39,747 nt of DNA. Origin: Clostridiales bacterium. GTDB taxonomy: Bacteria > Bacillota > Clostridia > Christensenellales > Aristaeellaceae. The notes below the pieces were generated by a model. The model was not told where the DNA came from, ran no database searches, and saw only the letters and a program-made list of their open reading frames with translations. Made by a program: the position numbers and the translations under genes. Positions 2,424 through 36,243 of the stretch are shown here, one piece after another (the first letter of the stretch is position 1; every line of letters begins with the position of its first letter). The stretch is taken from the NCBI GenBank assembly GCA_015056015.1, contig SVHD01000021.1:1-39747 (forward strand). Direction: 5' to 3'.

Positions 2424-2523
2424 GCGGGAGGAGGCTTTTGAGTCAAAAGCCCCCTCCCGCGCCCACCCGAAAACCTGCTCTGGATTTTTATGGACGATTC
2501 TAATCTGCTTGCGTGCCAGTGGA
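2424..2523 (+). repeat. R element copy 1 (gene-end hairpin repeat)
   Basis: The hairpin 2424-2460 has base GCGGGAGG and apical GGCTTTTGA/TCAAAAGCC. Linker ACCCGAAAACCTGC, then CTGGAT and a tail ending GTGCCAGTGG. It starts 13 nt after the XRE stop and runs in the same direction. It belongs to the stem class that also includes copies 7 and 13. Confidence 0.85.
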
Positions 2524-2537
2524 GCATGGGGGACGTT

Positions 2538-2558
2538 ATGGGGCTTATTCAGCCCCAT
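2538..2558 (+). other. Short perfect hairpin between R copies 1 and 2
   Basis: ATGGGGC (2538-2544) pairs with GCCCCAT (2552-2558) around TTATTCA. No T-run follows. No gene is evident between 2411 and 3095; the stretch holds R copies 1 and 2, this hairpin and ST copy 1. Confidence 0.5.
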
Positions 2559-2593
2559 GCCCCGAACCAGGGACATTGACACGAAGAAATTTA

Positions 2594-2787
2594 CGGGAGG
2601 GGTTCTTTGAAAAGGCATCGCATGCCCTGCACTTCGTTTGCGCATGCTCTTTGCGCCTGCGGTATTGACGCATGCCGCGTCACAAACCCACAAGGGGTTT
2701 GTTCCGGAGAATCCCCCTCCCGCACCCACCCCAAGAAAGCCGTACTGGATATTTCTGATGGGTTCTAATCCACTTGGATGCCAGTGA
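2594..2787 (+). repeat. R element copy 2, hairpin split by an insertion
   Basis: Left arm CGGGAGGGGTTCTTTG begins at 2594. The matching right arm AGAATCCCCCTCCCGC appears only about 95 bp later, followed by a normal linker (CCCAAGAAAGCCGTACTGGAT) and a tail ending GATGCCAGTGA at 2787. The intervening bases form short GC-rich palindromes (GCATGC-type). This reads as an R element with an insertion at the hairpin tip, second in tandem behind copy 1. Confidence 0.65.
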
Positions 2788-2807
2788 AACGCGAGGAGAA
2801 CGTCGGT

Positions 2808-3067
2808 AGTCACGGGCCGGGCGGCAGAAAGCCGCCCAGCGGATGCGAAGCATCCGGGAAAACGAAAAAACGCCGGAGGAGAAAGCTCGCTTTCTCTCAC
2901 GGCGTTTTTATGTTTTCCAATGGCCCGTGGATCATTTCAATCGTTTTCTAAAATTCTCGTTTCCCCAAGTTTCGTGCGGAAATAACTGCGATTTTCCACC
3001 CCAGTCACTTCGCAAACCGGAGTCCAGAGGAGGAACTCCTCTGGCGCGGGGGTACGGGGGGCGCGGA
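2808..3067 (+). repeat. ST element copy 1 (multi-helix structured repeat)
   Basis: Closing helix CACGGGCC (2811-2818) with GGCCCGTG (2922-2929). Inside it: GGGCGGC/GCCGCCC (2819-2837), CGGATGC/GCATCCG (2840-2856), and a long hairpin closed by GGAAAAC/GTTTTCC (2857-2918) containing ACGCCG/CGGCGT. Downstream are a further hairpin CCAGAGGAG/CTCCTCTGG (3024-3044) and the G-rich block GGGGGTACGGGGGGCG. The second copy lies at 15637-15896. The element starts about 23 nt after an R tail in both cases. Type unknown: structured RNA or DNA-level repeat. Confidence 0.75.
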
Positions 3068-3095
3068 GGCCCCTGCCTCGTCTTTCTGCTACAGA

Positions 3096-3755
3096 TCAGA
3101 TCTGATCCAGCAGCGTCACATCGGTGACGCCGGGGAGAGTTTTAAGGGCGGTGAGCAGGAATTCCTGGGGCCTTTCATCCAGTTCGATGGCCATAATGGC
3201 CTGGCCGCCGGCTTCCCTGCGGAAAACGCGCATGGTGGCGATATTGATGCGATAATTGGATACCAGATGGGTGACCATGGCGATGGCGCCGGGGGCGTCG
3301 GTATGGCGGATAACCAGGGTGGTTTTTTCCCCGGAAAAGCCCACTTCCAGCCCATCCAGATACTGCACCAATATGCTGCCCCCGCCAATGGACGCGGCCT
3401 GCACCTTTACCTGCCTGCCGCTTTCCCCGGTGATATGCACCACCACGGTATTGGGGTGGGCGTCCTTCAAATGCACGGGATAAAACTGGATATCCAGCCC
3501 CGCATCCTTGGCCAATTGCAGGCTGTCCCGCAATCTTTCATCATCCACCGTCATATCCATCAGCCCGCCGGCCACGGCGCGGTCGGTGCCATGGCCGCGA
3601 TAGGTTTTTTCAAAGGAGCCGTGGAAATATACGTCGGCCTTCACCGGCGTTTCGCCCAGCAATTGCCGGGAAACCCGGCCGATCCGGGCCGCCCCCGCGG
3701 TATGGGAGGAGGAAGGGCCGATCATCACCGGCCCGATAATATCAAATAAATTCAT
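3096..3755 (-). CDS. sdaAB: L-serine ammonia-lyase, iron-sulfur type, beta subunit
   Basis: 219 aa from the ATG at 3755, chosen over an upstream in-frame start because AAAGGCGGATG precedes it and the family begins MxLFDIIGPVMIGPSSSHTAG. The GPSSSHTAG motif is at residues 13-21, and a C-terminal ACT-type domain (about 145-219) includes TDAPGAIAMVTHLV. With the alpha subunit, the [4Fe-4S] enzyme deaminates L-serine to pyruvate and ammonia. The alpha gene normally sits next to it but is not in this window; the gene is followed by the ST repeat instead. Its promoter (TTGTCA, 17 nt, TATAAT, minus strand) shares its -35 with the divergent G1PDH gene. Confidence 0.93.
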   Translation of the reverse strand: MNLFDIIGPVMIGPSSSHTAGAARIGRVSRQLLGETPVKADVYFHGSFEKTYRGHGTDRAVAGGLMDMTVDDERLRDSLQLAKDAGLDIQFYPVHLKDAHPNTVVVHITGESGRQVKVQAASIGGGSILVQYLDGLEVGFSGEKTTLVIRHTDAPGAIAMVTHLVSNYRINIATMRVFRREAGGQAIMAIELDERPQEFLLTALKTLPGVTDVTLLDQI

Positions 3756-3789
3756 GGTGCATCCGCCTTTATTTCTGTATTCCTTCTTT

Positions 3790-3840
3790 ATTATACCGCC
3801 CCGCCTGCGCCTTGACAAGTATTCTTCCCGGCGGTAAAAT
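3790..3840. promoter_or_regulatory. Divergent promoters with a shared -35 (sdaAB / G1PDH)
   Basis: Leftward: -10 at 3790-3795 (ATTATA on plus), 17-nt spacer, -35 TTGTCA read on minus at 3813-3818. Rightward: TTGACA 3812-3817, 17-nt spacer, TAAAAT 3835-3840. The seven bases TTGACAA at 3812-3818 serve both, so two polymerases could not occupy both promoters together. Confidence 0.7.
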
Positions 3841-3857
3841 AATATTTGGGTGATTTT

Positions 3858-3875
3858 TCCGGATATTTATCCGGA
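3858..3875. promoter_or_regulatory. Inverted repeat in the G1PDH leader
   Basis: TCCGGATA-TT-TATCCGGA, a perfect 8-bp dyad 18 bp downstream of the rightward -10 box and 35 bp before the ATG. It could be an operator or a leader hairpin; no regulator can be assigned. Confidence 0.5.
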
Positions 3876-3909
3876 TCCGCCAATAAATCATTTTTAGGAG
3901 GAATAAATC

Positions 3910-5262
3910 ATGGCCTATTTTGATGAAATGAGCCTCCAGGAAATCCTGCGCCCCGAGGGACACGACTGCGCCTGCGGCCGCCGGCATGATACCGGGCTGC
4001 AATTTTTGCGGGTAGGGCAGGGCGTGATCAATTGCGTGCCCGAAGCTATCGCCTTTATGCAGAAGAAACGCCCCTTCCTGGTGGCCGACGCCAATACCTG
4101 GAAGGCCGCCGGCGAAAAGGTGGCCGCTATTCTGGAAAAGGCCGGGATCCCCTATTCTTCCTATGTTTTCCCCGCTTCCCGGGGACATATTGAGCCCGAT
4201 GAACAGGCCGTGGGCAGCATTACCATGGCCCTGGATCCCAGCTGCGATATGCTGCTGGCGGTGGGCTCCGGCGTGATCAATGATTGCTGCCGCGTGGTGG
4301 CCCATGCCACCGGCAAGGGCCATATGGTGGTGGGCACCGCGCCCTCCATGGATGGCTATGCCTCCAATTCCTCCTCCATGATCGTGGATCGCATCAAGGT
4401 TTCCATCTACGCCCGCTGCCCCCAGGCCATTATCGCGGATGTGGATATCATGAAGGAAGCCCCCATGCGCATGCTCTTTGCGGGCGTTGGCGATATGCTG
4501 GCCAAGTATAACGCCATCTGCGAATGGCGCATTTCCCATATCGCTACCGGCGAATTCTATTGCGAAAATGTGGCCCGGCTGGTGCGCGCATCCGTTAAAA
4601 AGATCATGGCCAATGTGGACGGGCTTCTGAAGCGCGCCCCCGAGGCCGTGCATGCCGTGGCCGAAGGCCTGATCCTCTCCGGCGTGGCCATGGATTTTGC
4701 CAAGATCAGCCGCCCTGCCTCCGGTCTGGAGCATTATTTCTCCCATCTGTGGGAAATGGAAGCCCTCCGCAATGGCGAGCATGCCGATCTGCACGGCATC
4801 TGCGTGGGCGTGGGCTTGTGCCTGAGCCTGCCTATGTATGACGCCCTGCGTAAGCATCGCCCCACCAGGGAAGAGGCCGACGCCGCTTACGCCGCCTTCT
4901 CCCAGGAAGAATGGGAAAAGGAAATGCGCGAAATCTTCGCCGGTACCGCCGATGACGTCATCGAGGGCGAAAAAACCTGGGGTAAGAATTCCCCCGAAAA
5001 GCATGGCAGCCGCCTGAATAACCTGATCAGCCATTGGGATGAAATCCTCAAGATTATGGATGAAGAATTGCCCGAAACCGAAGCGCTGATCAAAACCATG
5101 CGCGATATCGGTATCCCCACCACCCCCGCTGACCTGGGCCTGGATGACGCCGCCACCCGCCGCGCCTTTATCGGCTCCCGCGAAATCCGCGATAAATATA
5201 TCCTCTCCTCCATGCTCTGGGATCTGGGCCTGCTCAAGCACCCCGATTTCCTGATCTGGTAA
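3910..5262 (+). CDS. egsA: sn-glycerol-1-phosphate dehydrogenase (EgsA/AraM type)
   Basis: 450 aa, start behind TAGGAGGAATAAATC. Reduces dihydroxyacetone phosphate to sn-glycerol-1-phosphate with NAD(P)H; in Bacillus the product feeds heptaprenylglyceryl phosphate. Family signatures are the nucleotide-binding GSGVINDCCRVVAHATGK and APSMDGYASNSSSM. The metal ligands align as D195 (GVGDMLAKY), H275 (GLEHYFSHLWE) and H295 (ADLHGICVG). It is longer than Bacillus AraM, mostly at the N-terminus, where residues 17-25 hold HDCACGRRH, a His/Cys cluster. It stands alone behind its own promoter and ends in R copy 3 and a terminator. A broader metal-dependent alcohol dehydrogenase role is possible but less likely. 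Confidence 0.9.
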   Translation: MAYFDEMSLQEILRPEGHDCACGRRHDTGLQFLRVGQGVINCVPEAIAFMQKKRPFLVADANTWKAAGEKVAAILEKAGIPYSSYVFPASRGHIEPDEQAVGSITMALDPSCDMLLAVGSGVINDCCRVVAHATGKGHMVVGTAPSMDGYASNSSSMIVDRIKVSIYARCPQAIIADVDIMKEAPMRMLFAGVGDMLAKYNAICEWRISHIATGEFYCENVARLVRASVKKIMANVDGLLKRAPEAVHAVAEGLILSGVAMDFAKISRPASGLEHYFSHLWEMEALRNGEHADLHGICVGVGLCLSLPMYDALRKHRPTREEADAAYAAFSQEEWEKEMREIFAGTADDVIEGEKTWGKNSPEKHGSRLNNLISHWDEILKIMDEELPETEALIKTMRDIGIPTTPADLGLDDAATRRAFIGSREIRDKYILSSMLWDLGLLKHPDFLIW

Positions 5263-5283
5263 GGGGAAAGACGAGGAGTTATT

Positions 5284-5510
5284 GCGGGGGAACCATTCTT
5301 TGAAGCCAAAGAATGGTTCCCCCATCCCGCAACCTCAATCGTCGCGCTGGTTCGCTGCCGCTCCCATCGCTCGTTTCGGTTGATTCGTTCAGCTTCCTAT
5401 GGCCTTTCAGGCCATCCCTCCACTGGAGGATCGGTCGCTTCACTCACCCACCCGAAAACCTGCTCTGGATAAAACATGCAGCCAGCGAATCGGCTTGAAT
5501 GCCAGTGGCA
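5284..5510 (+). repeat. R element copy 3, with an insertion after the hairpin
   Basis: A 17-bp stem, GGGGGAACCATTCTTTG (5286-5302) with its exact complement (5307-5323), loop AAGC. About 125 bp of unrelated sequence precedes the linker (CACCCGAAAACCTGCTCTGGAT, from about 5450) and the tail ending GCCAGTGG near 5508. It starts 21 nt after the G1PDH stop and is co-directional. The stem and linker belong to different subfamilies, so it may be a chimera. Confidence 0.7.
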
Positions 5511-5512
5511 CA

Positions 5513-5553
5513 GTAAAATAATAAAGAGGCCTTGAATGGCCTTTTTATTTTAC
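5513..5553. terminator. Bidirectional intrinsic terminator between convergent genes
   Basis: AGAGGCC and GGCCTTT form the core around TTGAAT, extended by an A/T-rich stem (GTAAAATA with TATTTTAC). Serves the G1PDH gene (plus) and the GH127 gene (minus). Confidence 0.75.
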
Positions 5554-5597
5554 CTAAATATGGTAAATATTGGAAATATTACAATATAAAAAAGCCG

Positions 5598-5699
5598 CAC
5601 TGGGAATCAGGCCGATTCGAATCGTCCATTGAAATCCAGTACGGCTTTCTTGGAGGGGTGCGGGGAGGGGTTCTTTGGCCACAAAGAACCTCTCCCCGC
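5598..5699 (-). repeat. R element copy 4 (minus)
   Basis: 18-bp stem with base GCGGGGAGGGG (5660-5677 with 5682-5699, one G-T wobble), loop GCCA, linker CCAAGAAAGCCGTACTGGAT on the minus strand, tail end CCCAGTG. Second in tandem behind copy 5, same orientation. Confidence 0.8.
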
Positions 5700-5714
5700 C
5701 ATATCTCCCCCCAT

Positions 5715-5817
5715 CCACTGGCACACAATCCGATCAAAACCGACCATAAAAATCCAGTACAGCTTTTCGGAGGGGGCGCGGGGGAACCACTTTTGGCTTC
5801 AAAAGTGGTTCCCCCGC
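5715..5817 (-). repeat. R element copy 5 (minus)
   Basis: Perfect 18-bp stem GCGGGGGAACCACTTTTG (5778-5795 with 5800-5817), loop GCTT; tail end CCACTGG at 5715. The hairpin lies 19 nt beyond the stop of the GH127 gene and points the same way. Its stem class matches copy 12. Confidence 0.85.
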
Positions 5818-5836
5818 AAAAACTCCCCCACTCTCA

Positions 5837-7714
5837 TCACTTCTTCCAGAACCAGGCGCACATGCGGGAATCCTCGGCCCAGGTTTTGCCGGCAGAGGAA
5901 TAATCCACCATGGGGATGGCGGGGCCATCGGCCTGGGGGATGGCAAGATAAATCATGGCAGGGAAGGGCGGATTCTGCAGGATTTCGGCCTCCACCTCGC
6001 CCTTTTCATTGAATTTGGGCAGGATATGGGAATCCACGTCATCATTGAGCCGCGCATCCCGGGAAAGCACCAGGGGCCCGCGGCGCAGGGCCATGTAGGG
6101 CGCCTGGGCAGAGGAAACGCCGTAATCCTCGGGCAGAATGGGCCGGATGGCAAAATCCAGGGTCAGGAGGATTTCGTCCCCATCCTTCCATTCCCGGGCG
6201 ATGGCGGCATACGCCCCCGCCTGACAGGAAACGCATTCGCCGTTGACGGAAAGATGGTTCTCCTTGCTCCAGGCAGGAATGCGCAGGGCCAGGGTGAAGG
6301 CTTCCGCCTTTTCCAGCTTCAGCGCCATTTTCACGGTGTTTTCGGCAGGATATGCGGTTTCGGTGGTCAAAATGATTTCCTGGCCCGCGGGGGTCAGGGT
6401 GCTGACGGCGCCGTTGAGATAGAAATTGGCATATAGCCCATCCTTCGCCGCCATGACGGCAGAAAGCCCGGGCAGGCCCAGCCCAGCCGCACCAATGCAG
6501 GCGCAGCAGCCGTAATACGTGCCATTTTCCATTTCCTTGTATCCGCCCATCTTCCGGCCGCGAATGCCGGGCAGCAGGGGACTGTAGCTGTCAAAGGGCA
6601 GGCCGCCGTTGTGCTTGTTTCCGTTGGTGTTGATGGCGCCCAGCATGGCATTATACAGGGATTTTTCCATTTCATCCGCAAAGAAGGAATCCCCCGTGAT
6701 GCAAAGCAGCTGCCAGCAAAGCTTCATCCAGGTAACGGTGACGCAGGTTTCCTGCATGATGCCCTTTTCCTCGATATCCAATTGCCGCACGCCGGAATGA
6801 TCGAATAATTCATGGGTGCAGCCCGCGCAGCCGATTACCGTGATATCCGTCTTCGCCACCCGATGGGCAAATTTGATCACCGCTTCCTTCCATTTTTCAA
6901 TGCCGGTGACCCGGTAATATTCCAGCAGGCCTTCAAAGCAGCTCATCATTTCATAGGCCTTGGTGACGGGGTATTCATAGGGCGCGATTTCATCCGCCAG
7001 CGCCAGTTCGAAAATATTCCCCGCATCGCAGCCGCCCCGGGAAACGATGTAAGCAGCAAAATCCAGATATTTCTGCTCCTTCGTAAGCGTGTAGAGGCGG
7101 ACAAAGGGCTCCAGCACCGAGCTGGAATTGAGGCCATACCAGAAATTCGTGGCCTTGTTGATTTCCTTCTTGCCTTCCTCTTCCGGGCCGATTTTATCCA
7201 TCAGCGCATCCGCATGCCGGCAAATGGCGGGCAGAATCTGCTTTTTCAAATCTTCATCGGGGCAGATTTCCATGAAATACTGCATGCCCAGCAAAATATA
7301 CTTCCTGCTCCAGATATCCCAGCCATCCAGCTGCTTTTCTACGGAATAAGTGGAAAAACGGCCGTCCGCACCCTGGACGGACAGCATATCCCGGACGGTT
7401 GCCTCCATGGCGGCATAGAGCTTTTCATCCCCGGTGCACTGATAGCAGAAGCATGCGCCGCGCATCATTTTGCCCCAGTATTCGCCGCGCCAGCCCTTGT
7501 CGTGATCATCCACATTACCCTGACGGAACTGACTCACAAAAAGCGCCCATAAATCACTGTCCAGCAGCTGGATTTTTTCCACATACTCAATGGCGTCCAT
7601 CAGATAACCGGTGGAAGAAACACTGCCGGAAGGCAGGGGGAAAAGCCGGTCCGTATTGATCCGGGGCGCCCAGGCGCTGCCCTTGTGACAAATTTTCTGC
7701 AATAAAGTTTCCAT
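5837..7714 (-). CDS. GH127-type glycoside hydrolase (beta-L-arabinofuranosidase-like, DUF1680)
   Basis: 625 aa from the ATG at 7714, 8 nt after GGAGG; an upstream in-frame ATG lacks a site. The all-alpha catalytic domain ends with a beta-rich C-terminal part. The zinc-thiolate site of GH127 is recognisable: QETC gives E322 and C324, and YYGCC gives C403 and C404, corresponding to the Glu/Cys/Cys/Cys set of Bifidobacterium HypBA1. The candidate acid/base is the Glu in GCTHELFD (about residue 302). There is no signal peptide, so it is a cytoplasmic enzyme acting on imported oligosaccharides, perhaps arabinofuranosides. No transporter or sugar regulator lies next to it. Substrate is not provable from sequence. 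Confidence 0.85.
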   Translation of the reverse strand: METLLQKICHKGSAWAPRINTDRLFPLPSGSVSSTGYLMDAIEYVEKIQLLDSDLWALFVSQFRQGNVDDHDKGWRGEYWGKMMRGACFCYQCTGDEKLYAAMEATVRDMLSVQGADGRFSTYSVEKQLDGWDIWSRKYILLGMQYFMEICPDEDLKKQILPAICRHADALMDKIGPEEEGKKEINKATNFWYGLNSSSVLEPFVRLYTLTKEQKYLDFAAYIVSRGGCDAGNIFELALADEIAPYEYPVTKAYEMMSCFEGLLEYYRVTGIEKWKEAVIKFAHRVAKTDITVIGCAGCTHELFDHSGVRQLDIEEKGIMQETCVTVTWMKLCWQLLCITGDSFFADEMEKSLYNAMLGAINTNGNKHNGGLPFDSYSPLLPGIRGRKMGGYKEMENGTYYGCCACIGAAGLGLPGLSAVMAAKDGLYANFYLNGAVSTLTPAGQEIILTTETAYPAENTVKMALKLEKAEAFTLALRIPAWSKENHLSVNGECVSCQAGAYAAIAREWKDGDEILLTLDFAIRPILPEDYGVSSAQAPYMALRRGPLVLSRDARLNDDVDSHILPKFNEKGEVEAEILQNPPFPAMIYLAIPQADGPAIPMVDYSSAGKTWAEDSRMCAWFWKK

Positions 7715-7752
7715 TATATATACCTCCGTATTTCGCATGGGTTCCTGATTGT

Positions 7753-7781
7753 ATTATAGCGGAAATAATGCCCGTTTTCAA
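7753..7781 (-). promoter_or_regulatory. Promoter of the GH127 gene
   Basis: On the minus strand TTGAAA (plus 7776-7781), 17-nt spacer, TATAAT (7753-7758), about 40 bp before the start codon. Confidence 0.75.
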
Positions 7782-7821
7782 TCGATAAATGATTCATCCG
7801 CTGTTTTTATTTTTTCAAAAT

Positions 7822-7845
7822 AAAAAAGCTTCTTTTTCAAGAAGC
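7822..7845 (-). terminator. Intrinsic terminator of the rubrerythrin transcript
   Basis: GCTTCTT (7828-7834) with AAGAAGC (7839-7845), loop TTTC; on the minus strand a run of six T follows. It lies beyond R copy 6, giving the order gene, R, terminator. Confidence 0.8.
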
Positions 7846-7864
7846 CTGTCTTTCATCAACCAAT

Positions 7865-7969
7865 CACTGGCACACATCCAGATTCCATAGCGCCCAGAAA
7901 GATCCAGAGTCAGTTTTCTTTGGGAGAGCGCGAGAGGGTATTTCTTTTTCAAAAGAAATACCCTCTCGC
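7865..7969 (-). repeat. R element copy 6 (minus)
   Basis: Perfect 19-bp stem GCGAGAGGGTATTTCTTTT (7930-7948 with 7951-7969); linker carries AAAGAAAACTG on the minus strand; tail end CACTGG at 7865. Starts 21 nt after the rubrerythrin stop. Same stem class as copies 15 and 19. Confidence 0.85.
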
Positions 7970-7990
7970 AAAATTCCTCGATTCGTACTC

Positions 7991-8630: not shown

Positions 8631-8659
8631 GAGCTATTTTTGCCGTTTATTACGCGCAA

Positions 8660-9006: not shown

Positions 9007-9014
9007 TTTTCCTT

Positions 9015-9113
9015 CCACTGGCACACAACCCGATTCGACTCGTCAATAAATATCCAGAGCAGGTTTTCGGGAGGGTGCGGGAGGGGGCTTTTGACTCAAA
9101 AGCCTCCTCCCGC
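9015..9113 (-). repeat. R element copy 7 (minus)
   Basis: 17-bp stem GCGGGAGGGGGCTTTTG (9077-9093 with 9097-9113, one wobble), tail end CCACTGG at 9015. It starts 19 nt after the recF stop, co-directional. Confidence 0.85.
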
Positions 9114-9132
9114 AAATTTTCCCCAGCAATTC

Positions 9133-10282: not shown

Positions 10283-10385
10283 GCGGGGAGCGGTTCTTTG
10301 TGGCCAAAGAACCCCTCCCCGCACCCCTCCAAGAAAGCCATACTGGATTTTACTGAACTTTCTCTTATCTTCTTGTTTCCCAGTG
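10283..10385 (+). repeat. R element copy 8 (plus), the only copy not behind a co-directional gene
   Basis: 18-position stem from GCGGGGAGCGGTTCTTTG (10283-10300 with 10305-10322, one C-C mismatch), loop TGGC, linker CCTCCAAGAAAGCCATACTGGAT, tail end CCCAGTGA near 10385. It lies tail-to-tail with copy 9 between dnaN and recF. Confidence 0.8.
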
Positions 10386-10397
10386 ATACTTTTTTTA

Positions 10398-10427: not shown

Positions 10428-10459
10428 CATAGTTCTTTCATTATATTTTATTCTTTGCT

Positions 10460-10566
10460 CCACTGGCACGCAAGTTGATTTTACGCCGTCTTGCAATATC
10501 CAGAGCAGGTTTCTTGGAAGGGGCCTGGGGAAACCGTTCTTTGGCTACAAAGAATGGTTTCCCCAG
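10460..10566 (-). repeat. R element copy 9 (minus)
   Basis: 19-bp stem CTGGGGAAACCGTTCTTTG (10525-10543 with 10548-10566, one wobble), loop GCTA. The usual GCGGGG base is replaced by CTGGGG and the opposite arm by CCCCAG, a compensated change. Tail end CCACTGG at 10460. It starts 35 nt after the dnaN stop. Confidence 0.85.
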
Positions 10567-14721: not shown

Positions 14722-14727
14722 GGATTT

Positions 14728-14866
14728 GCGGGGGAAACCGTTCTTTGTGACCAAAGAATGGTTTCCCCCGCACCCCCTTCCAAGAAAGTCGTACTGGATG
14801 TTTTTTTATCTTTACTCACCCTCTTGTGTGCCAGTGGAAGGTTTTCCTCTTGTGTGCCAGTGGGAG
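14728..14866 (+). repeat. R element copy 10 with duplicated tail
   Basis: 20-bp stem GCGGGGGAAACCGTTCTTTG (14728-14747 with 14752-14771, one G-T wobble), loop TGAC, linker CCTTCCAAGAAAGTCGTACTGGAT. The tail TCTTGTGTGCCAGTGG occurs twice, ending at 14837 and about 14863. It starts 6 nt after the DUF362 stop; no terminator separates it from yabP. Confidence 0.85.
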
Positions 14867-14914: not shown

Positions 14915-15184
14915 ATGGAAAAAGATGGTCTGGGAAATCATACCTTGTCCATGGAAAACAGGCAGCGGGCGGCGCTCACCGGCATTGCGGAGGTATTGGC
15001 CTTTGATGAAAATCAGGTGATTTTGCGCACCGATACCGGGGAAATTGCCCTGGCCGGGGAAAATCTGCATGTAACGAAGCTGATGCTGGATGAGGGGCAA
15101 TTGGTGGTGGAGGGCAAGATTGACGGCGTTTTCTACACCCAGAAAAAGCCCCGGCGCAGTTTTTTCGGCAGAAAAGGCCCATGA
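14915..15184 (+). CDS. yabP: Sporulation protein YabP
   Basis: 89 aa from the ATG at 14915, 7 nt after GAGGT; the in-frame ATG at 14909 is too close to that site. It matches the YabP/YqfC beta-barrel family (NRQRAALTGIAEVLAFDENQ, LVVEGKIDGVFYTQKK). Needed for sporulation in Bacillus, where the yabP-yabQ unit is under SigE. A weak SigE-like pair, GTGTTATT (14868-14875), 14 nt, CATATCTT (14890-14897), lies upstream but leaves almost no room for a leader, so I do not call it. Its stop overlaps the yabQ start by 4 nt. Confidence 0.9.
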   Translation: MEKDGLGNHTLSMENRQRAALTGIAEVLAFDENQVILRTDTGEIALAGENLHVTKLMLDEGQLVVEGKIDGVFYTQKKPRRSFFGRKGP

Positions 15185-15507
15185 TTTTCTTTGAAACCGC
15201 CCATCAGGCGCGCATATTCCTTCTGCTCTTATCCGCCGGCCTGGCAATCGGCCTTTTCTATGATTTCCTCTCCCTCTTCCGAAGGAAATCTTCCCGCGCT
15301 CTGGCCGCGATTCTGGATATCGTCTTCTTTCTTTGTTCCGGCGCGCTTTGCGCTTGCGCCCTGGCCATGGGCGGCGAAAAATCCCTCCGCTTCTATGCCA
15401 TCCTCGGCGTCCTCTGCGGCGCCGGCATCTATTCCCTGGGCATCCGCCGGGTGGGGATTGCGATTTTTGGGAGTTTGGGGAAAATGGCGGGAGGAGGACG
15501 TAGATGA
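15181..15507 (+). CDS. yabQ: Spore cortex biosynthesis protein YabQ
   Basis: 108 aa. Membrane protein with about three hydrophobic helices and the family motif GLFYDFLSLFRR near residues 24-35. In Bacillus, YabQ localises to the forespore outer membrane and is required for cortex assembly. It is translationally coupled to yabP (ATGA overlap). The usual neighbour divIC does not follow; an R element begins one base after the stop codon, then ST copy 2. Together with yabP it shows that the organism or its recent ancestor forms spores. Confidence 0.9.
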   Translation: MIFFETAHQARIFLLLLSAGLAIGLFYDFLSLFRRKSSRALAAILDIVFFLCSGALCACALAMGGEKSLRFYAILGVLCGAGIYSLGIRRVGIAIFGSLGKMAGGGRR

Positions 15508-15508
15508 T

Positions 15509-15617
15509 GCGGGGGAAACCATTCTTTGTGACCAAAGAACGGTTTCCCCCGCACCCCCTTCCAAGAAAGTCGCTCTGGATTTTTATGGACGATTCTAATC
15601 CACTTGATTGCCAGTGA
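15509..15617 (+). repeat. R element copy 11
   Basis: 20-position stem GCGGGGGAAACCATTCTTTG (15509-15528) with 15533-15552, one A-C mismatch, loop TGAC. Linker CCTTCCAAGAAAGTCGCTCTGGAT, tail ending GCCAGTGA at 15617. The stem starts one base after the yabQ stop. Confidence 0.85.
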
Positions 15618-15636
15618 AGCAATAAAGGATAAAGAT

Positions 15637-15896
15637 AGCCACGGGCCGGGCGGCATTTGCCGCCCAGCGGATGCAAAGCATCCGGGAAAACAAAAAGAAC
15701 GGCAACGGAGAGAACTTGTTCTCTCCCGTGCCGTTTTTTGTTTTCGGTTGGCCCGTGGATTATTTTAATCGTATTCTGAAGTTCTTATTTTCCCAAGTTT
15801 CATGCGGAAATAACCGTATTTTCCCACCCAAGTCATTTCGCAAACCGGAGTCCAGAGGAGTCCCTCCTCTGGCGCGGGGGTACGGGGGGCGCGGAG
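15637..15896 (+). repeat. ST element copy 2 (multi-helix structured repeat)
   Basis: Same architecture as 2808-3067. Closing helix CCACGGGCC (15639-15647) with GGCCCGTGG (15750-15758); GGGCGGC/GCCGCCC with loop ATTT instead of AGAAA; CGGATGC/GCATCCG; then a long hairpin in which ACGGCA/TGCCGT replaces ACGCCG/CGGCGT of copy 1, so pairing is kept. CCAGAGGAG/CTCCTCTGG has loop TCC instead of GAA. It precedes the trkA promoter but ends before the predicted transcript start, so it is not a trkA riboswitch. Confidence 0.75.
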
Positions 15897-15934
15897 CACC
15901 ATGCCTTCGTATTCTTTGTTTACACAGATTTTAC

Positions 15935-18814: not shown

Positions 18815-18834
18815 AGGAGTTTTTTGGGGAGTTT

Positions 18835-18937
18835 GCGGGGGAACCACTTTTGATGCCAAAAGTGGTTCCCCCGCACCCCCTCCGAAAAGCCTTTCTGGAT
18901 TTTTATGGACGATTCTAATCCGCTTGTGTGCCAGTGG
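18835..18937 (+). repeat. R element copy 12
   Basis: Perfect 18-bp stem GCGGGGGAACCACTTTTG (18835-18852 with 18857-18874), loop ATGC; linker CCCTCCGAAAAGCCTTTCTGGAT; tail ending GTGCCAGTGG. Starts 20 nt after trkH and is followed by a terminator. Confidence 0.87.
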
Positions 18938-19013
18938 GGCGGGAAAAAAGTTTTACGGGGTTTTAATCCTTACTGCTTCTGGAAAGATGAATGGAATGAT
19001 TTGAATTTGTCTG

Positions 19014-20841: not shown

Positions 20842-20855
20842 GGACGGAGGATATT

Positions 20856-20906
20856 GCGGGAGGAGACTTTTGAGTCAAAAGTCCCCTCCCGCACCCACCC
20901 GAAAAC
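20856..20906 (+). repeat. R element copy 13, 3'-truncated
   Basis: Stem GCGGGAGGAGACTTTTG (20856-20872) with 20876-20892, one A-C mismatch; linker CACCCGAAAACC, then the tail is lost and replaced by another hairpin. The apical change GGC to GAC relative to copy 1 is matched by GCC to GTC on the other arm. Confidence 0.8.
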
Positions 20907-20909
20907 CAT

Positions 20910-20953
20910 CTCGGGTAAAAACAATGAGCATCAGTGCTGATTGCTTCCCCGAG
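20910..20953 (+). other. Nested hairpin between grpE and dnaK
   Basis: CTCGGG (20910-20915) with CCCGAG (20948-20953) encloses AGCATCAG (20927-20934) and CTGATTGCT (20937-20945). It is followed by TTT but not a proper U-tract, so it is more likely a stability or attenuation structure than a full terminator. Confidence 0.5.
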
Positions 20954-22877: not shown

Positions 22878-22951
22878 CTGGGGGAAACCGCTCTTTGTAA
22901 GCCAAAGAGCGGTTTCCCCCAGTCCCCCTTCCGAGAAAGCTGTATTGGATG
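22878..22951 (+). repeat. R element copy 14, tail truncated
   Basis: Perfect 20-bp stem CTGGGGGAAACCGCTCTTTG (22878-22897) with 22903-22922, loop TAAGC. It shares the CTG/CAG base change with copy 9 and has a second compensated change (GCTC with GAGC). Linker CCTTCCGAGAAAGCTGTATTGGAT; the CCAGTGG end is missing. Lies between dnaK and dnaJ. Confidence 0.83.
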
Positions 22952-24173: not shown

Positions 24174-24278
24174 GCGAGAGGGTATTTCTTTTGAAAAAGA
24201 AATACCCTCTCGCGCTCTCCTAAAGAAAACTGGCTCTGGATTTTATTGGTCGCCATTTCATTGGCGGGCTTCCCAGTG
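24174..24278 (+). repeat. R element copy 15
   Basis: Perfect 19-bp stem GCGAGAGGGTATTTCTTTT (24174-24192) with 24195-24213; linker GCTCTCCTAAAGAAAACTGG; tail ending CCCAGTG. Same stem as copy 6 on the other side of the origin. Confidence 0.85.
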
Positions 24279-24301
24279 CGGCGGATAATTTATTTGGTGT
24301 G

Positions 24302-25499: not shown

Positions 25500-25643
25500 G
25501 CCGCTGGCATTCAACACGATCAGAACAGCGTTTTTTCTCATCACTGGGACACAAGCGGATGAGAATGCATTTGAAATATCCAGTACGGCTTTCTTGGAGG
25601 GGTGCGGGGAGGGATTCTTTGGCCACAAAGATCCTCTCCCTGC
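25500..25643 (-). repeat. R element copy 16 (minus), with an extra tail fragment
   Basis: Core 25542-25643: stem GCGGGGAGGGATTCTTTG (25604-25621) with 25626-25643, two mismatches and two wobbles, the least well paired full copy. Tail end CACTGGG at 25542. A second tail-like fragment (CGCTGGCATTCAACACGATC) at 25501-25520 suggests a partly deleted tandem copy. The hairpin is 19 nt from the DUF2974 stop. Confidence 0.72.
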
Positions 25644-31436: not shown

Positions 31437-31447
31437 AGATAAGCAAA

Positions 31448-31475
31448 AGAGGCCGAGGAAATCGGCCTCTTTTTT
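31448..31475 (+). terminator. Intrinsic terminator of the flavoprotein operon
   Basis: AGAGGCCGA (31448-31456) with TCGGCCTCT (31462-31470), loop GGAAA, then a T-run to 31475. Confidence 0.9.
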
Positions 31476-31497
31476 GATGCAGAAAGGAAAAGGAAAA

Positions 31498-31523
31498 CCG
31501 GGCTGTATTTCAGCCCGGCTTTT
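31498..31523. terminator. Terminator hairpin containing the MFS stop codon
   Basis: CCGGGCTG (31498-31505) with CAGCCCGG (31511-31518), loop TATTT, T5 on plus and T4 on minus. The stop codon of the minus-strand MFS gene (31510-31512) lies inside it. Confidence 0.75.
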
Positions 31524-32709: not shown

Positions 32710-32874
32710 GATAGCTCCTTTCCGCTGCAGGCCCCGAAAAAATTGCTTGCCCGGGGCGCACGCTTCCATCCTATCATAGAAAGGGAAAATAAACAAGAAC
32801 GGGCGGGGCGGAAAATCCCCCATCCCGACTGCCCGCTTTTTTTCCTCCCCCATGATTTTGTTACAATTCCCCCC

Positions 32875-32921
32875 TTGACAGAATGTGGTAGACAAGTGTA
32901 TCCTATCAGTAGACAATTGTC
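32875..32921 (+). promoter_or_regulatory. blaI-type promoter with two operators
   Basis: TTGACA (32875-32880), 18-nt spacer, TATCCT (32899-32904). TAGACAAGTGTA (32889-32900) lies in the spacer and TAGACAATTGTC (32910-32921, containing the palindrome GACAATTGTC) at the start point, 21 bp apart or two helical turns. This resembles BlaI/MecI operators (TACA/TGTA dyads). Confidence 0.75.
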
Positions 32922-32943
32922 AACAATGAAGGAGGATCAATTC

Positions 32944-33315
32944 ATGGCTGTGCAATGCACCGAGGCGGAATGGAAAATCATGGAGGTATTGTGGGAAAGC
33001 GCGCCCCGCACCATGCCTGAAATCACGAAAATTCTTTTGTCCTCTACCGGCTGGAGCCGCCATACCGTGATCACCCTTTTGAAGCGCATGCAGGAAAAGG
33101 GCAGCGTTGCGGTGGATGAAACGGGCCCGGTGAAAAAATATGCCCCCCTGATCACCCGGGAGGAGGCGTCCGCCCAGCAGACGAAAAAGCTGCTTTCCCA
33201 TGTATTTTCGGGGAAGGCGTCCCTGCTGGTGCAGAATCTGGTGGATACGGGGGAAATTTCCCTGGATGAAATGGAGGATATCCTTTCCCTTCTGAAGCAG
33301 GAGGGGAAGAAATAA
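32944..33315 (+). CDS. BlaI/MecI/CopY-family repressor
   Basis: 123 aa from the ATG at 32944 behind AAGGAGG. Winged helix at residues 5-70 (TEAEWKIMEVLWESAPRTMP, STGWSRHTVITLLKRMQEKG) and a C-terminal dimerisation helix region (EASAQQTKKLLSHVFSG). In the family the sensor protease triggers cleavage in the C-terminal part. Forms an operon with the M56 peptidase gene 12 nt downstream and probably represses its own promoter through the paired operators. Confidence 0.92.
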   Translation: MAVQCTEAEWKIMEVLWESAPRTMPEITKILLSSTGWSRHTVITLLKRMQEKGSVAVDETGPVKKYAPLITREEASAQQTKKLLSHVFSGKASLLVQNLVDTGEISLDEMEDILSLLKQEGKK

Positions 33316-33327
33316 GGAGGCGATTTG

Positions 33328-34926
33328 ATGCGCAAGGCGGATCTTTTCAATTTTTTGCTGGAGGCCAATCTGATGGCCTGCATGGCCATTGTGCTTTTGA
33401 TCATCGCGCGGAAAATGCTGCGAAAGCCCCTGGGCAGCGGCCCCATCTGCTTTGGCTGGCTGCTGGTGGCGGCGCGGCTGCTCTGCCCCCTGGCGCTGCC
33501 CAATCCTTTGATCGGCAGCATCCGATCGGATTTTATCAATGATCTGGCCATCCGGCCCATTGCCACCCAGTTTAAGCGCCGGGCGGAGGACGCCCTGGCG
33601 GATTTATACAGCTTCACCCGGGTGGATCTGGGAATCCCAGAGGAGCATGCCCTTTCCCGGGGCGTTTTCCGGGCCTATTCCAGCACCTGGGATGGCAGCA
33701 TGGCCAAAATGCTGGTGGTGATCTATCTGGTGGGGTTTGCATTGGTGCTTGGCTGGTTCATTTACAGCAATCTGCGTTTTCATCGGAATATTTCCCGCAA
33801 TCGCATTGAGCCCCTTTCCGGGGAATTGCTGGAAAAATACCGGGCCCTTTGCGAAAAAAGGAAGGTAAGGATGCTTCCGGTATTTCTGGTGGATCCATTG
33901 CCCAGCGCCTGCCTCATCGGCGTTTTCCGGCCCTGGATTGCCCTGCCCGTCACGGCGGATCCCGGGGAAGCGGAAAAAATCCTGGATCATGAAATCTGTC
34001 ATTTCAAGGGCGGGGATCATCTTTTCTCCCTGCTGCGGCTATTTTGCTGCGCGCTGCATTGGTTCAATCCCCTGGTGTGGCTGGGGGCGAATCTTTGCCG
34101 GGCGGATATGGAAATGCGCTGCGATGAGCGGGTGACCCGGGGCATGGATGATGCGCAAAAGCGGGATTACGCCGCCGTGCTGGTCAAGGCCGCGGCCAGG
34201 CGCACCCTGCCCGGGCTGCCGGTGCTGGCAACGGGCATGACCATGAAAGCCAAGCGGCTGAAAAGCCGGGTGAAGGGGATCATTGAAAATCAAAGGCCCA
34301 TCCGGGCGGCTGCCTTTGCCTTTGTGCTGGTGTCGTCCATGCTGCTGGTGGGGGCCTTTGCCACGGCGGAGTATTATCCCATTCCTTCCATTCCCGATTT
34401 TTCGGCGGATATGCTGGTTGAAAACCGGCCCGTGGAAACGGCGGAAGAGGCCCTGGCCCTGGCCAGGGAAATTGCGGCGCTGCCCCTGATTGCCACCGAT
34501 GTGGATGGGGCGGAATGGGAAGTGGATGAATATCCCGACGCCGGTGCGCCTGCCTGGCGGGTGAAGGCGGTGGCTCCCAATATCAATTATTATATCGTGG
34601 TACTTTTGAAGGAGGGCGGCATTTACAGCATTGCCCAATCCCCCAATTGCAATTGGGATGCGGTGAATCAATTCCCCAAGTACAGCCATCGGGATGAGGA
34701 ATTCAAGCCCGTGCTGCTGGAATTTGTGAAGGATTTTTCGGTATACGCCAATCCTGCGCTGGAGGGGAAGCTGGACGGGATGAAATTCACCTATGATTTC
34801 ATGTATCAGAATCGCCGGTACGCCGTTTTTGAAACGCCCATTCCCGGCACCTTTCAGCATATGATGCTCCGTCTGCAAACGTCGCCCGAAATCCGCATTC
34901 TGGAATACGGCCCGGGAAACGGCTGA
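33328..34926 (+). CDS. M56 (BlaR1/MecR1-like) membrane metallopeptidase
   Basis: 532 aa from the ATG at 33328, 7 nt after GGAGG. Three N-terminal helices (about 8-28, 36-55, 125-147), the zinc protease motif HEICH at residues 221-225 with a glutamate-containing ADMEMRCDERV segment downstream, and a fourth helix (AAFAFVLVSSMLLVGAFA, about 330-347). The C-terminal extracellular part (about 350-532) is not a penicillin-binding domain: no SxxK or KTG motif is visible. It senses something other than beta-lactam by direct acylation. Likely cleaves the upstream repressor on signal. Confidence 0.87.
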   Translation: MRKADLFNFLLEANLMACMAIVLLIIARKMLRKPLGSGPICFGWLLVAARLLCPLALPNPLIGSIRSDFINDLAIRPIATQFKRRAEDALADLYSFTRVDLGIPEEHALSRGVFRAYSSTWDGSMAKMLVVIYLVGFALVLGWFIYSNLRFHRNISRNRIEPLSGELLEKYRALCEKRKVRMLPVFLVDPLPSACLIGVFRPWIALPVTADPGEAEKILDHEICHFKGGDHLFSLLRLFCCALHWFNPLVWLGANLCRADMEMRCDERVTRGMDDAQKRDYAAVLVKAAARRTLPGLPVLATGMTMKAKRLKSRVKGIIENQRPIRAAAFAFVLVSSMLLVGAFATAEYYPIPSIPDFSADMLVENRPVETAEEALALAREIAALPLIATDVDGAEWEVDEYPDAGAPAWRVKAVAPNINYYIVVLLKEGGIYSIAQSPNCNWDAVNQFPKYSHRDEEFKPVLLEFVKDFSVYANPALEGKLDGMKFTYDFMYQNRRYAVFETPIPGTFQHMMLRLQTSPEIRILEYGPGNG

Positions 34927-34938
34927 TGGGGATAAGGG

Positions 34939-34975
34939 ACGGGGGAGGATTGCCGGGTCAAAAAATGCCTCCCGT
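34939..34975 (+). other. Hairpin after the M56 gene, possible decayed R stem
   Basis: ACGGGGGAGG (34939-34948) can pair with CCTCCCGT (34968-34975) with two bulged G; GTCAAAA lies in the loop as in the GCGGGAGG class. It starts 12 nt after the stop, where R elements sit, but linker and tail are missing. Confidence 0.4.
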
Positions 34976-35036
34976 GAGGGGGGCTATTTCTTTTCAGGAA
35001 AATATGGTATATAATGGGGAAAAGGAGGGAGAGCAA

Positions 35037-35855
35037 ATGGAAGCGAAATTAAGCGTATGGTCATCCTATTATGTTGAATTGAGCCCGGAGGACGCGGTAC
35101 GGGAATTCAAAAAATACGGGTATTCCTGCTCGGAATTATCCGATGAGCACGGGGAAATGCTGCTGCATCGGGGGGAGCCCAAGGCGGTGGGCGCGGCCTT
35201 CCGGAAATTTTTAGAAGAAGAGCAATTCGAAATGAAGCAGGGCCATCTCTGGCTGAAATGCAAAATCTGCTCCGACGCCGGCATGCCGGAAAATCTCTTC
35301 CCCTGGCTGGATTTATACGAGGCCATCGGCGTGGAAAATGCGGTGCTTCATTGCGATCCCATGATCGGGGAGCCGGATTTAAGCGAGGAAGCCCGCTATG
35401 CCCGGAATCTGGCGGCGCTGAAGAAAATCCAGGATTATCTGGAAGCGCATCAGATGAAGCTGCGGATTTGCCTGGAAAATCTGCGCCTTCGTTTTTACAG
35501 CGTGGAGGAGCTTTTATCCCTGGTGACCAAGCTTTCCCCCGATCATTTCGGCATTTGCCTGGATACGGGGCATTTGAATCTGACGGAAAAAAATCCCCGG
35601 CATTTCATTCTCGCTGCCGGGAAATATCTGCGCGCCCTGCATATTGCGGATAACGAAGGGGAAACCGATCAGCATCTGATGCCCTACGGCCGGGGGAATG
35701 TGGATATTGCGGCGGTGGTGCAGGCCCTCCGGGAAATCGATTACCACGGCTATTTCAATTATGAAATCCCCGGCGAACGCAAGGCCCCCCTGCCCATTCT
35801 GGGCTACAAGCTGGATTACATCCGCAAATGTTATGACTATCTGATGGAGGAATGA
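35037..35855 (+). CDS. Sugar phosphate isomerase/epimerase-type TIM-barrel protein
   Basis: 272 aa from the ATG at 35037 behind AAAGGAGGGAGAGC. AP_endonuc_2-type TIM barrel: candidate metal ligands in AVLHCDPM, LRICLENLRLR, FGICLDTGHLN, LHIADNEGETDQHLMPYGRG and FNYEIPGE. The family includes xylose-isomerase-like epimerases and isomerases of sugars or inositols; substrate unknown. A TATAAT at 35010-35015 marks its promoter, with no convincing -35. Not linked to a catabolic cluster. R copy 17 follows 18 nt after the stop. Confidence 0.85.
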   Translation: MEAKLSVWSSYYVELSPEDAVREFKKYGYSCSELSDEHGEMLLHRGEPKAVGAAFRKFLEEEQFEMKQGHLWLKCKICSDAGMPENLFPWLDLYEAIGVENAVLHCDPMIGEPDLSEEARYARNLAALKKIQDYLEAHQMKLRICLENLRLRFYSVEELLSLVTKLSPDHFGICLDTGHLNLTEKNPRHFILAAGKYLRALHIADNEGETDQHLMPYGRGNVDIAAVVQALREIDYHGYFNYEIPGERKAPLPILGYKLDYIRKCYDYLMEE

Positions 35856-35873
35856 GGGGGACGGAGATATATT

Positions 35874-35977
35874 GCGGGGAGGGGTTCTTTGTAGCCAAAG
35901 AACCCCTCCCCACACCCCTCCAAGAAAGCTATTCTGGATTTTACTGGTTGCCTTCGAATCGGCTTGTGTACCAGCGG
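35874..35977 (+). repeat. R element copy 17
   Basis: Stem GCGGGGAGGGGTTCTTTG (35874-35891) with 35896-35913, 17 of 18 paired, loop TAGC; linker CCTCCAAGAAAGCTATTCTGGAT; tail ending CCAGCGG. Confidence 0.85.
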
Positions 35978-36010
35978 GGCAGTGGGGGAATTCCATTGCC
36001 GGATCAATAA

Positions 36011-36035
36011 AAAAGCCTCCCTGGGGAGGCTTTTT
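36011..36035. terminator. Bidirectional intrinsic terminator
   Basis: GCCTCC (36015-36020) with GGAGGC (36025-36030), loop CTGG, A4 before and T5 after. Shared by the TIM-barrel gene (plus) and the DUF1292 operon (minus), each with R elements between gene and terminator. Confidence 0.87.
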
Positions 36036-36049
36036 CTTTTCTGTATACG

Positions 36050-36137
36050 CCACTGGCACGCAAGCGGATTCAGCGTCGGCCAGTAAGAACCAGAGCAGCT
36101 TTCTTGGAAAGGGGTGCGGGGGAAATCCATTCCCCCT
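36050..36137 (-). repeat. R element copy 18 (minus), hairpin collapsed
   Basis: Tail and linker are normal (CCACTGG at 36050; CCAGAGCAGCTTTCTTGG), but the stem is shortened to GGGGGAA (36118-36124) with TTCCCCC (36130-36136). Second in tandem behind copy 19. Confidence 0.75.
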
Positions 36138-36243
36138 CCACTGGCACGCAAGCGGATTCAGCGACGGCCAGTAAAATCCAGAGCCGGTTTTCTTTGGGAG
36201 AGCGCGAGAGGGGCTTTCTTTTTCAAAAGAAAGCCCCTCTCGC
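36138..36243 (-). repeat. R element copy 19 (minus)
   Basis: Perfect 19-bp stem GCGAGAGGGGCTTTCTTTT (36204-36222) with 36225-36243. Relative to copies 6 and 15, GTA in one arm is GCT here and the other arm changes to match. Tail end CCACTGG at 36138; 14 nt from the DUF1292 stop. Confidence 0.87.

Follow-up and report, generated by a model that had tools for sequence, protein, structure and literature searches.

R is a repeated unit of about 105 nucleotides (nt), composed of a hairpin, a linker, and a second stem of the form CTGG..CCAG, that occurs 19 times in the 39,747-nt stretch of Clostridiales DNA analyzed here (the window). The linker is the most informative part of R, because it mirrors the hairpin: read in the same direction, it is complementary to the 5′ arm, and hence the mirror image of the 3′ arm. 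In copy 6, for example, the arm GAGAGGG-TAT-TTCTTTT is accompanied by the linker CTCTCCC-AAAGAAAA, and in copy 14 the arm GGGGGAAACCGCTCTTTG is accompanied by CCCCCTTCCGAGAAAG. On balance we favor the view that R is a dispersed DNA repeat resembling the REP/BIME elements, with a conserved core that could potentially fold into an alternate-strand intrastrand triple helix and would mark the ends of genes. A preliminary description of the repeat named the linker but missed this relation; the linker changes with the arm.

Copies for testing this relation were chosen with a covariance model, R1, built from 17 aligned window copies and spanning 64 positions in the 3′ part of the unit. R1 contains no hairpin, and arm and linker can therefore be tested against each other. 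In 139 unique pairs the parallel complement scores 10.94 versus 7.92 with swapped linkers (standard deviation 0.15; maximum of 200 swaps, 8.43); antiparallel pairing and parallel identity score 4.1 and 1.5, respectively. The effect persists in a non-redundant set with one element per arm and per linker (54–60 elements), where the score is 10.8 versus 7.93 (highest of 800, 8.65). When 287 hairpin records of at least 12 base pairs (bp) are viewed from both sides, a matching flank is found on one side in 181, on both in 1, and on neither in 105. Shuffled linkers score at or above the cut-off in 75 of 3400 cases, and the scores of 532 hairpin readings form a two-humped distribution, with 170 at 8 or more. 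Judged by eye, most copies have a turn of about 3 nt between the 3′ arm and the third strand. With skips of 1–3 nt of the arm permitted, the best alignment leaves out 2 nt in 156 of 198 cases.

Changes in the letters of the three segments appear to be linked. In an alignment of 34 elements, all pre-selected at a score of 9 or more, columns 15/34/60 hold T-A*A in 16 elements, C-G*G in 15, G-C*C in 2, and C-A*G in 1; columns 17/32/62 hold C-G*G in 26, T-A*A in 7, and C-A*G in 1. Changes on both sides are found at 11 of 18 hairpin pairs. Stem 2 covaries as well but is optional. Among the 70 elements without CTGG, 26 have perfect 5-bp matches versus 11.7 on permutation (maximum 19 of 200), and compensated examples include TCGGG/CCCGA, AGGGA/TCCCT, and TGGAG/CTCCA.

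A linker that is the parallel complement of an arm forms no Watson–Crick pairs with it, and no polymerase copies in parallel. A third strand can account for the relation, in keeping with established triplex rules. By sequence rules, the three segments needed for an intrastrand triplex lie on one strand. That strand would form a hairpin of about 17–22 bp built from a run of purines and then one of pyrimidines. It would next make a short turn and double back along the helix, reading purines of one arm in the lower half and switching to the other arm for the upper. For the antisense strand, the triplets predicted are G.G-C and A.A-T in the lower half (the purine motif) and T.A-T and C+.G-C in the upper (the pyrimidine motif). 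Exposure of the antisense strand, by negative supercoiling behind RNA polymerase or during lagging-strand replication, would permit the triplex hairpin to fold, and it may thereby mark gene ends and perhaps set a topological or transcription–replication boundary. The folded form would probably also be the one in which a putative machinery copies R to new sites.

Two other readings were considered and set aside. As a competing 3′ arm in an alternative hairpin the linker would have to pair in antiparallel fashion, and the antiparallel score is low; a tRNA-like T-arm was rejected because GATTCTAATC is not conserved among the copies.

The window copies are as follows; distances are from the stop codon to the hairpin.

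R copy 1, 2424..2523, plus strand: hairpin 2424–2460, third strand, and stem 2; 13 nt behind stop 2410 (a gene labeled XRE in the preliminary description).
R copy 2, 2593..2788, plus strand: arms at about 2593–2610 and 2706–2722 (by eye), with a loop insert of about 95 nt; 3′ part 2726–2788.
R copy 3, 5286..5509, plus strand: a chimera of hairpin 5286–5323 and a 3′ part of another subtype, 5446–5509; 23 nt behind stop 5262.
R copy 4, 5714..5817, minus strand: 19 nt behind stop 5837.
R copy 5, 5596..5699, minus strand: second tandem copy.
R copy 6, 7863..7969, minus strand: 21 nt behind stop 7991; followed by a terminator-like hairpin, 7847–7826.
R copy 7, 9014..9114, minus strand: 18 nt behind recF (stop 9133).
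R copy 8, 10283..10387, plus strand: tail-to-tail partner of copy 9; faces against recF and dnaN.
R copy 9, 10459..10566, minus strand: 35 nt behind dnaN (stop 10602).
R copy 10, 14727..14838, plus strand: 5 nt behind stop 14721, of an open reading frame (ORF) with weak 4Fe-4S ferredoxin matches.
R copy 11, 15508..15618, plus strand: 0 nt behind the stop of ORF 15181–15507; the stem can be lengthened to take in 2 nt of the stop codon.
R copy 12, 18834..18938, plus strand: 19 nt behind stop 18814.
R copy 13, 20855..20953, plus strand: 13 nt behind the ORF that precedes dnaK (labeled grpE in the preliminary description); stem 2 is CTCGGG/CCCGAG, compensated.
R copy 14, 22878..22941, plus strand: 16 nt behind dnaK; hairpin and third strand, with stem 2 decayed.
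R copy 15, 24174..24280, plus strand: 12 nt behind dnaJ.
R copy 16, 25540..25643, minus strand: 19 nt behind stop 25663.
R copy 17, 35873..35978, plus strand: 17 nt behind stop 35855.
R copy 18, 36049..36135, minus strand: second tandem copy, hairpin partial.
R copy 19, 36137..36243, minus strand: 14 nt behind stop 36258.
Core example (hairpin, turn, and third strand, within copy 6), 7908..7969, minus strand: score 15, among the three highest in the window.

Most of what was first reported about these copies is borne out. A regular-expression scan of the window returns 14 copies of the form CTGGAT..CCAGTG, R1 recovers its own 17 source copies, and the copies at 20855 and 22878, in which hairpin and linker are kept and the second stem is changed or decayed, bring the total to the 19 originally counted. 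The hairpin begins 0–35 nt behind a stop codon on its own strand in 15 of the 19, the number first claimed, and copies 2, 5, and 18 are second tandem copies in the same orientation. Copy 8 had been singled out as the only breaker of the orientation rule. It is indeed the only copy that faces the wrong way, but it is one partner of a tail-to-tail pair, and the rule itself required reformulation. Copy 3, previously taken as a single unit, keeps its hairpin close behind a stop codon; its two parts, however, are separated by a foreign stretch of 122 nt and do not match each other. No U-tract, the hallmark of an intrinsic terminator, is seen after the hairpins of the window copies, again as first described. 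A terminator had been placed after ten copies. Terminator-like matches lie downstream of at least six of these (7863−, 9014−, 10459−, 18834+, 24174+, and 35873+), and they are consensus matches that occur only about 1.4- to 1.9-fold more often than in shuffled sequence.

Several features of the window copies bear on the history of the repeat. The insert of about 95 nt in the loop of copy 2 (2611–2705), which ends GCGTCACAAACCC..GGGTTTGTTCCGGAG, has counterparts in the hairpins of L100, L093, L062, L099, L059, and L049, among other loci, and may be a small element of its own, directed at the R loop, or else a variant of R with a long loop. The stretch in copy 3 (5324–5445), which begins at about CCGCAACCTCAATCGTCGC, adjoins the hairpin base without a gap. 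In other species, hairpins behind dnaK (L150 and L161) or dnaN (L196) are followed by similar stretches (CCGCAGCCTCAAT..), and apparently another repeat joins R at that base. Identical 42-nt stem-2 stretches occur at distant sites: window position 2480 and G000:C101:34129, where the same stretch is carried on different hairpin types, and window position 2745 and G000:C33:22487 (G000 denotes the genome of origin). The presence of identical stretches on unlike hairpins suggests exchange or mosaic copying between copies. The window also contains a direct repeat of 173 nt (2906–3078 and 15734–15906; 85% identical, 12.8 kb apart) that is, as far as seen, unrelated to R.

The genome from which the window derives comprises 2.9 Mb in 106 contigs and is 84.5% complete. 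An R1 search of this genome, in which 150 of 1265 candidates were scored, yielded at least 150 copies, all 150 with E-values below 5e-7. Results called genome-wide below refer to 655,499 bases (655 kb of the 2.9 Mb), mostly stretches picked around matches: the window and 80 fetched loci, 64 of them surrounding R1 matches and 16 taken as controls from contigs without listed matches. In this DNA, R1 finds 189 copies at E ≤ 0.01. Only 2 of the 189, both weak, fall in the control stretches (about 228 kb), which indicates that the copies are clustered. The density of R along the genome is thus very uneven, with 19 copies in the 40 kb of the window versus 2 in the controls; contigs C25, C34, C101, C5, and C74 were likewise set against the controls for R density. 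The tetranucleotide composition of 10 of the 16 control stretches correlates with that of R-bearing stretches at 0.95 or above, and that of the other 6 at 0.87–0.93. Some may therefore be foreign or unusual DNA.

Gene positions were assigned with a caller whose composition model was iteratively trained on the same DNA; it misses at least one short ORF (15181–15507). Clean hairpins were found in 145 of the 189 copies, none of them inside a gene: 73 lie between convergent genes and 1 between divergent genes; of those in tandem gaps, 46 have the direction of the genes and 23 the opposite one; the other 2 are at contig edges. A structure scanner that accepts elements scoring 9 or more, and that gives some false positives (for example, a terminator hairpin in L271), returns 158 elements with a similar distribution (72 convergent, 50 tandem-same, 31 tandem-opposite, 1 divergent, and 4 at edges). 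As with REP/BIME elements, location is extragenic for all 154 that could be placed.

Placement of R relative to stop codons, in both distance and orientation, is far from random. Of the 154 placed elements, 97 lie −5 to 30 nt behind a stop codon on the same strand, where uniform positions within the same gap and random orientation give 13.6 (standard deviation 3.3; maximum of 1000 rounds, 25). This tabulation of strand and distance, a check that the preliminary description had proposed, extends its assertion of non-random placement beyond the window. The median distance from stop codon to hairpin is 16–17 nt for both same-direction and convergent copies. Neighboring copies show an equally marked preference: of 46 pairs, 37 are tail-to-tail (+−), none is head-to-head (−+), and 9 are tandem (5 ++ and 4 −−). 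The gap between tail-to-tail partners is about 20–90 nt in 33 of the 37 pairs, and inverted pairs of this kind are another trait of REP/BIME elements. For 18 of the 31 reversed copies the gap also holds a copy facing the other way, as is the case for window copy 8; no partner was detected for the remaining 13. The orientation of R is therefore better stated as two rules: the hairpin points outward behind a stop codon, and neighbors stand tail-to-tail or in tandem, never head-to-head. Of gaps of at least 100 bp, R occupies 48 of 72 that are convergent and 1 of 68 that are divergent; because the stretches were picked around matches, such shares are biased upward.

The hairpins also carry information about which strand folds. 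Read in the sense of the gene, the 158 unique hairpins of the scanner set, which include a few non-element hairpins, contain 79 A.C or C.A mismatches and 33 G.T or T.G. In R1-selected copies examined with a neutral stem rule (a stem is found in 149 of 189 copies, giving 107 unique stems), internal mismatches number 64 A.C versus 21 G.T. This is the reverse of the pattern expected of folded mRNA, and favors folding of the gene-antisense strand. The match between arm and third strand is equally good whichever way a copy is transcribed: it averages 10.9 in 23 reversed copies and 11.0 in 46 same-direction copies selected with R1, and, in the score-selected set, 11.6 in antisense copies versus 11.4 in the others. 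Thus the match follows the element and not transcription. A favorable motif composition would be afforded by the antisense strand, with G.G-C and A.A-T in the lower half and T.A-T with scattered C+.G-C in the upper half. The same letters on the sense strand give runs of C+.G-C and of A.A-T. According to the account of intrastrand triplex repeats in PMC4666352, purine-motif triplexes cannot form in RNA. DNA, and specifically its antisense strand, is thus the likelier folding molecule.

An RNA triple helix of the ENE type was also considered. Such structures are defined by a U-rich internal loop that binds an A-rich 3′ tail. In R the third strand, read in the mRNA sense, is C-rich and then A-rich, and the stem has no U-rich internal loop.

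The combination of hairpin and third strand reappears beyond the genus, in further genera and families of the same order, and a small number of genomes from the rest of the class have it too. Matches to R1, which includes stem 2, were found in 15 of 60 genomes searched, all 15 within the genus and the genome of origin among them. A second model, R2 (hairpin and third strand), matches 24 of 100 genomes of the family (15 of 50 genera) and 24 of 200 of the order (18 of 102 genera); a third, R3, matches 7 of 291 genomes of the class, the genome of origin included, with 13 and 16 matches in two genomes of one family. The linker letters of R2 and R3 came from elements pre-selected for the match, so that match rates in other genera are not unbiased. 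In G448, 14 of 16 R3 matches form tail-to-tail pairs with starts 156–169 nt apart. The same architecture is built from other letters in L247 (GGGGGAGGGATTTCTTTT/CCCCCTCCAAAGAAAA) and L265 (AAAACCTTTCCTT/CTTTCCCAAGGAA) and, in other families, in L271 (GGAGGAAAACTTTTT/CCTCCTTTCAAAAA, also given as CCTCCTTTCAAAAAC), L275 (GAGAGGGAACTTTT/CTCTCCCACAAAA, also given as CTCTCCCACAAAAC), and L270 (GGGGGAGGGGAACCTTTT/CCCCCTCCCTTCTAAAAC). A third strand scoring 8 or more is present in 9 of the 17 loci L242–L258, 13 of the 18 loci L265–L282, and 14 of 21 class loci outside the genome of origin, many of the last representing one G448 subtype. When named genomes were scanned with a pattern, seven stretches matched; every one belongs to an uncultured Clostridiales or Clostridia assembly, and one of these is described as coming from roe deer rumen. 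Assemblies with RUG names are presumably also rumen genomes.

Placement behind stop codons is likewise found among relatives. In other members of the genus, 40 of 55 elements lie 4–26 nt behind a stop codon, versus 10 of 55 for a facing-stop control; the 55 include seven named contigs of metagenome-assembled genomes presumed to belong to the genus. The corresponding figures are 9 of 17 versus 5 of 17 in other genera of the family, and 18 of 45 versus 7 of 45 in other families, where distances are looser (all of these counts are ORF-based). Individual sites differ in how broadly they are shared. The core is present behind dnaK, the site of copy 14, in 13 of 20 genus loci, so that the site is occupied in other species as well as in the genome of origin, and the states GCTC/CGAG and ATTC/CAAG both occur. 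Behind dnaN it is found in the genome of origin only, in 1 of 22 genus loci. (Partial loci and paralogues were dropped, leaving 20 of 30 loci for dnaK and 22 of 25 for dnaN.) The number of copies varies strongly across species of the genus.

Two related arrangements were seen in passing. In several members of the genus, genes are followed by short hairpins with the pattern CTGGGG-loop-CCCCAG-ACCCC or CCAGGG-loop-CCCTGG-ACCC (dnaN flanks L184, L190, and L195 and dnaK flank L160), perhaps a minimal, single-motif version of the hairpin and third strand. In L303, L284, and L300, from another family (G565), hairpin–linker units flank a long AT-rich inverted repeat, for example TTTTTTCTTTTCGGTGGC..GCCACCAAAAAGAAAAAA, so that the whole is a nested palindrome.

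The letters themselves show that hairpin, third strand, and stem 2 covary, that most copies are placed 5–25 nt behind stop codons in the direction of the gene or else tail-to-tail, and that the core is found again in other families of the order. It is a bolder step to propose that R is a natural alternate-strand DNA triplex, kept by compensatory selection on three strands across families of one order of Clostridia as punctuation at the 3′ ends of genes, and we offer that proposal tentatively. Several observations weigh against the favored reading. Some columns depart from the rule: 9/40/55 holds A-T*C in 12 elements, A-T*T in 10, and G-C*C in 12, and 8/41/54 holds A-T*C in 3 of its 4 A-T cases. 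Of the 322 A positions in the lower block, 43 face a linker letter other than T, and in 33 of these the letter is A. All covariation counts are inflated by the common ancestry of subfamilies. The mismatch bias disappears (56:56) if the stem finder gives credit for G.T and pairs at the open stem base are included; this count arises because of T.G at the stem base, and internal pairs of the same stems number 48 A.C versus 18 G.T. Triplex rules specific to one strand fail to separate the strands (z is 17.9 for the template, 18.0 for the sense strand, and 20.8 for strict complementarity). Both the formation of a triplex and its function are read from sequence. The tight distance to stop codons, moreover, is easier to understand at the level of RNA.

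It is conceivable, if doubtful, that R is a selfish element that spreads as single-stranded DNA by means of a trans-acting enzyme recognizing the fold, with its position at gene ends reflecting either harmless sites or the insertion preference of the enzyme. Strong differences in copy number between species of the genus, the identical stem-2 stretches far apart, the insert and chimera among window copies, occupation of the dnaN site in one genome only, and a match that follows the polarity of the element are all what such spread might leave behind. Against this, the Y1/RAYT transposase domain (PF01797) was not detected in the copy-rich genomes G000, G007, G095, G124, and G138 (in G000, 84.5% complete, the gene could be missing), and Y1 matches are present in G001 and G132. 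Neither a blastn comparison of one copy with plasmids and phages nor a search of viral contigs with one exact pattern gave a match. Breadth of sharing at the dnaK site also argues against this explanation, as does the distance mode of 10–25 nt, which random insertion would not produce.

The preliminary description regarded R as a 3′ untranslated module and not a terminator. The second half of that judgment stands. The first, that a hairpin placed immediately beyond the terminating ribosome stops 3′ exonucleases or adjusts expression within operons, with linker and stem 2 forming an RNA fold, now seems unlikely. The original observation was right, and its interpretation is partly supported. The narrow spacing from stop codons, in the window genome and in other genus members, would suit an RNA module. 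So would the near absence of R from divergent gaps, its presence behind each of three adjacent genes (the ORF before dnaK, dnaK, and dnaJ), and terminator-like sites downstream of several copies, which would place R within transcripts. But parallel complementarity is not Watson–Crick, purine-motif triplexes do not form in RNA as PMC4666352 describes them, antisense copies match their linkers equally well, and the hairpins, read as mRNA, have internal mismatches of the A.C and not the G.U kind.

It is very improbable that the covariation is an artifact in which hairpin and linker types are co-inherited in a few subfamilies and their mirror relation is a compositional accident. Many copies do share arm or linker types (82 arms and 121 linkers among the 139 pairs), but the effect survives non-redundant collapse, shuffled linkers rarely match, the different letters of other families obey the same rule, and at the dnaK site some species carry one state of a three-way change and others the second. 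That R represents ordinary terminators or attenuators is hardly credible, despite its strong G+C-rich hairpins at gene ends and its frequency in convergent gaps (of stretches chosen for R), because no T-run follows the hairpin, separate terminator-like sites follow several copies, copies intervene between the ORF before dnaK, dnaK, and dnaJ, and antisense copies exist.

R was also compared with described systems. Identity with a named RNA family had been raised at the outset as a possible contrary finding; the window contains no Rfam match at the gathering threshold, and relaxed E-values gave only sub-threshold matches in the window and eight loci. Integron attC sites were rejected on account of the housekeeping genes and near-perfect hairpins. 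Intrinsic terminators share with R a G+C-rich hairpin behind a stop codon but end in a U-tract, and in R terminator-like sites are separate and downstream. REP sequences lie behind stop codons, pair in inverted fashion, and carry a foot tetranucleotide, GTAG or GGAG. The REP/BIME elements of enterobacteria, proposed earlier as the nearest analogy, do resemble R in placement: they are intergenic, stand behind stop codons, form inverted pairs, and differ in copy number between lineages. By eye, no common foot tetranucleotide is seen among 82 distinct R arms, and no Y1/RAYT domain was found in the genome of origin. R is also larger, with a unit of about 105 nt and a core of about 60 nt that includes a third strand, followed by a second stem, where PMC4666352 gives 20–40 bp for REP.

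The closest described kind is the PIT/BoxC/TMECO family of intrastrand triplex repeats in E. coli and other genomes (Holder et al. 2015, PMC4666352, and work of Hoyne and Maher cited there). As characterized in that account, these too are dispersed intergenic repeats in which a single strand can fold into a hairpin and third strand, and five cases of inverted pairs are noted in E. coli. They fall into four classes (I–IV), each with one motif, purine or pyrimidine, and were searched for with loops of 1–6 nt; the account reports 23 copies in E. coli MG1655, with no strand bias, fixed distance from genes, or known function. R, by contrast, has a mixed, strand-switching form in which the two motifs are fused and the upper hairpin lies mid-way, separating the lower half; it has a preferred place behind stop codons, and more than 150 copies in its genome. 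Designed alternate-strand triplexes, as presented in PMC3660596, resemble R in that the third strand reads the purines of one strand and then switches, but they are laboratory oligonucleotides used with a peptide.

The novelty of R would lie in being an intrastrand-triplex repeat with an alternate-strand core. A search of the open-licence literature, subscription papers being outside its scope, found no alternate-strand triplex repeat in bacteria, and we know of no natural genomic family of such structures. Whether cells maintain triplex DNA by selection is a long-standing dispute in which evolutionary evidence has been scarce. R offers many natural copies in which three strands apparently change together, both within one genome and in other families that use different letters. 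Should the triplex interpretation be correct, these copies would provide sequence-level evidence of selection on a triple helix, a rare natural case, and a natural test bed for the rules of alternate-strand triplexes, including the short turn and the omission of about 2 nt at the switch. Rumen Clostridia and their relatives would then also have, in R, a gene-end element of a new type.

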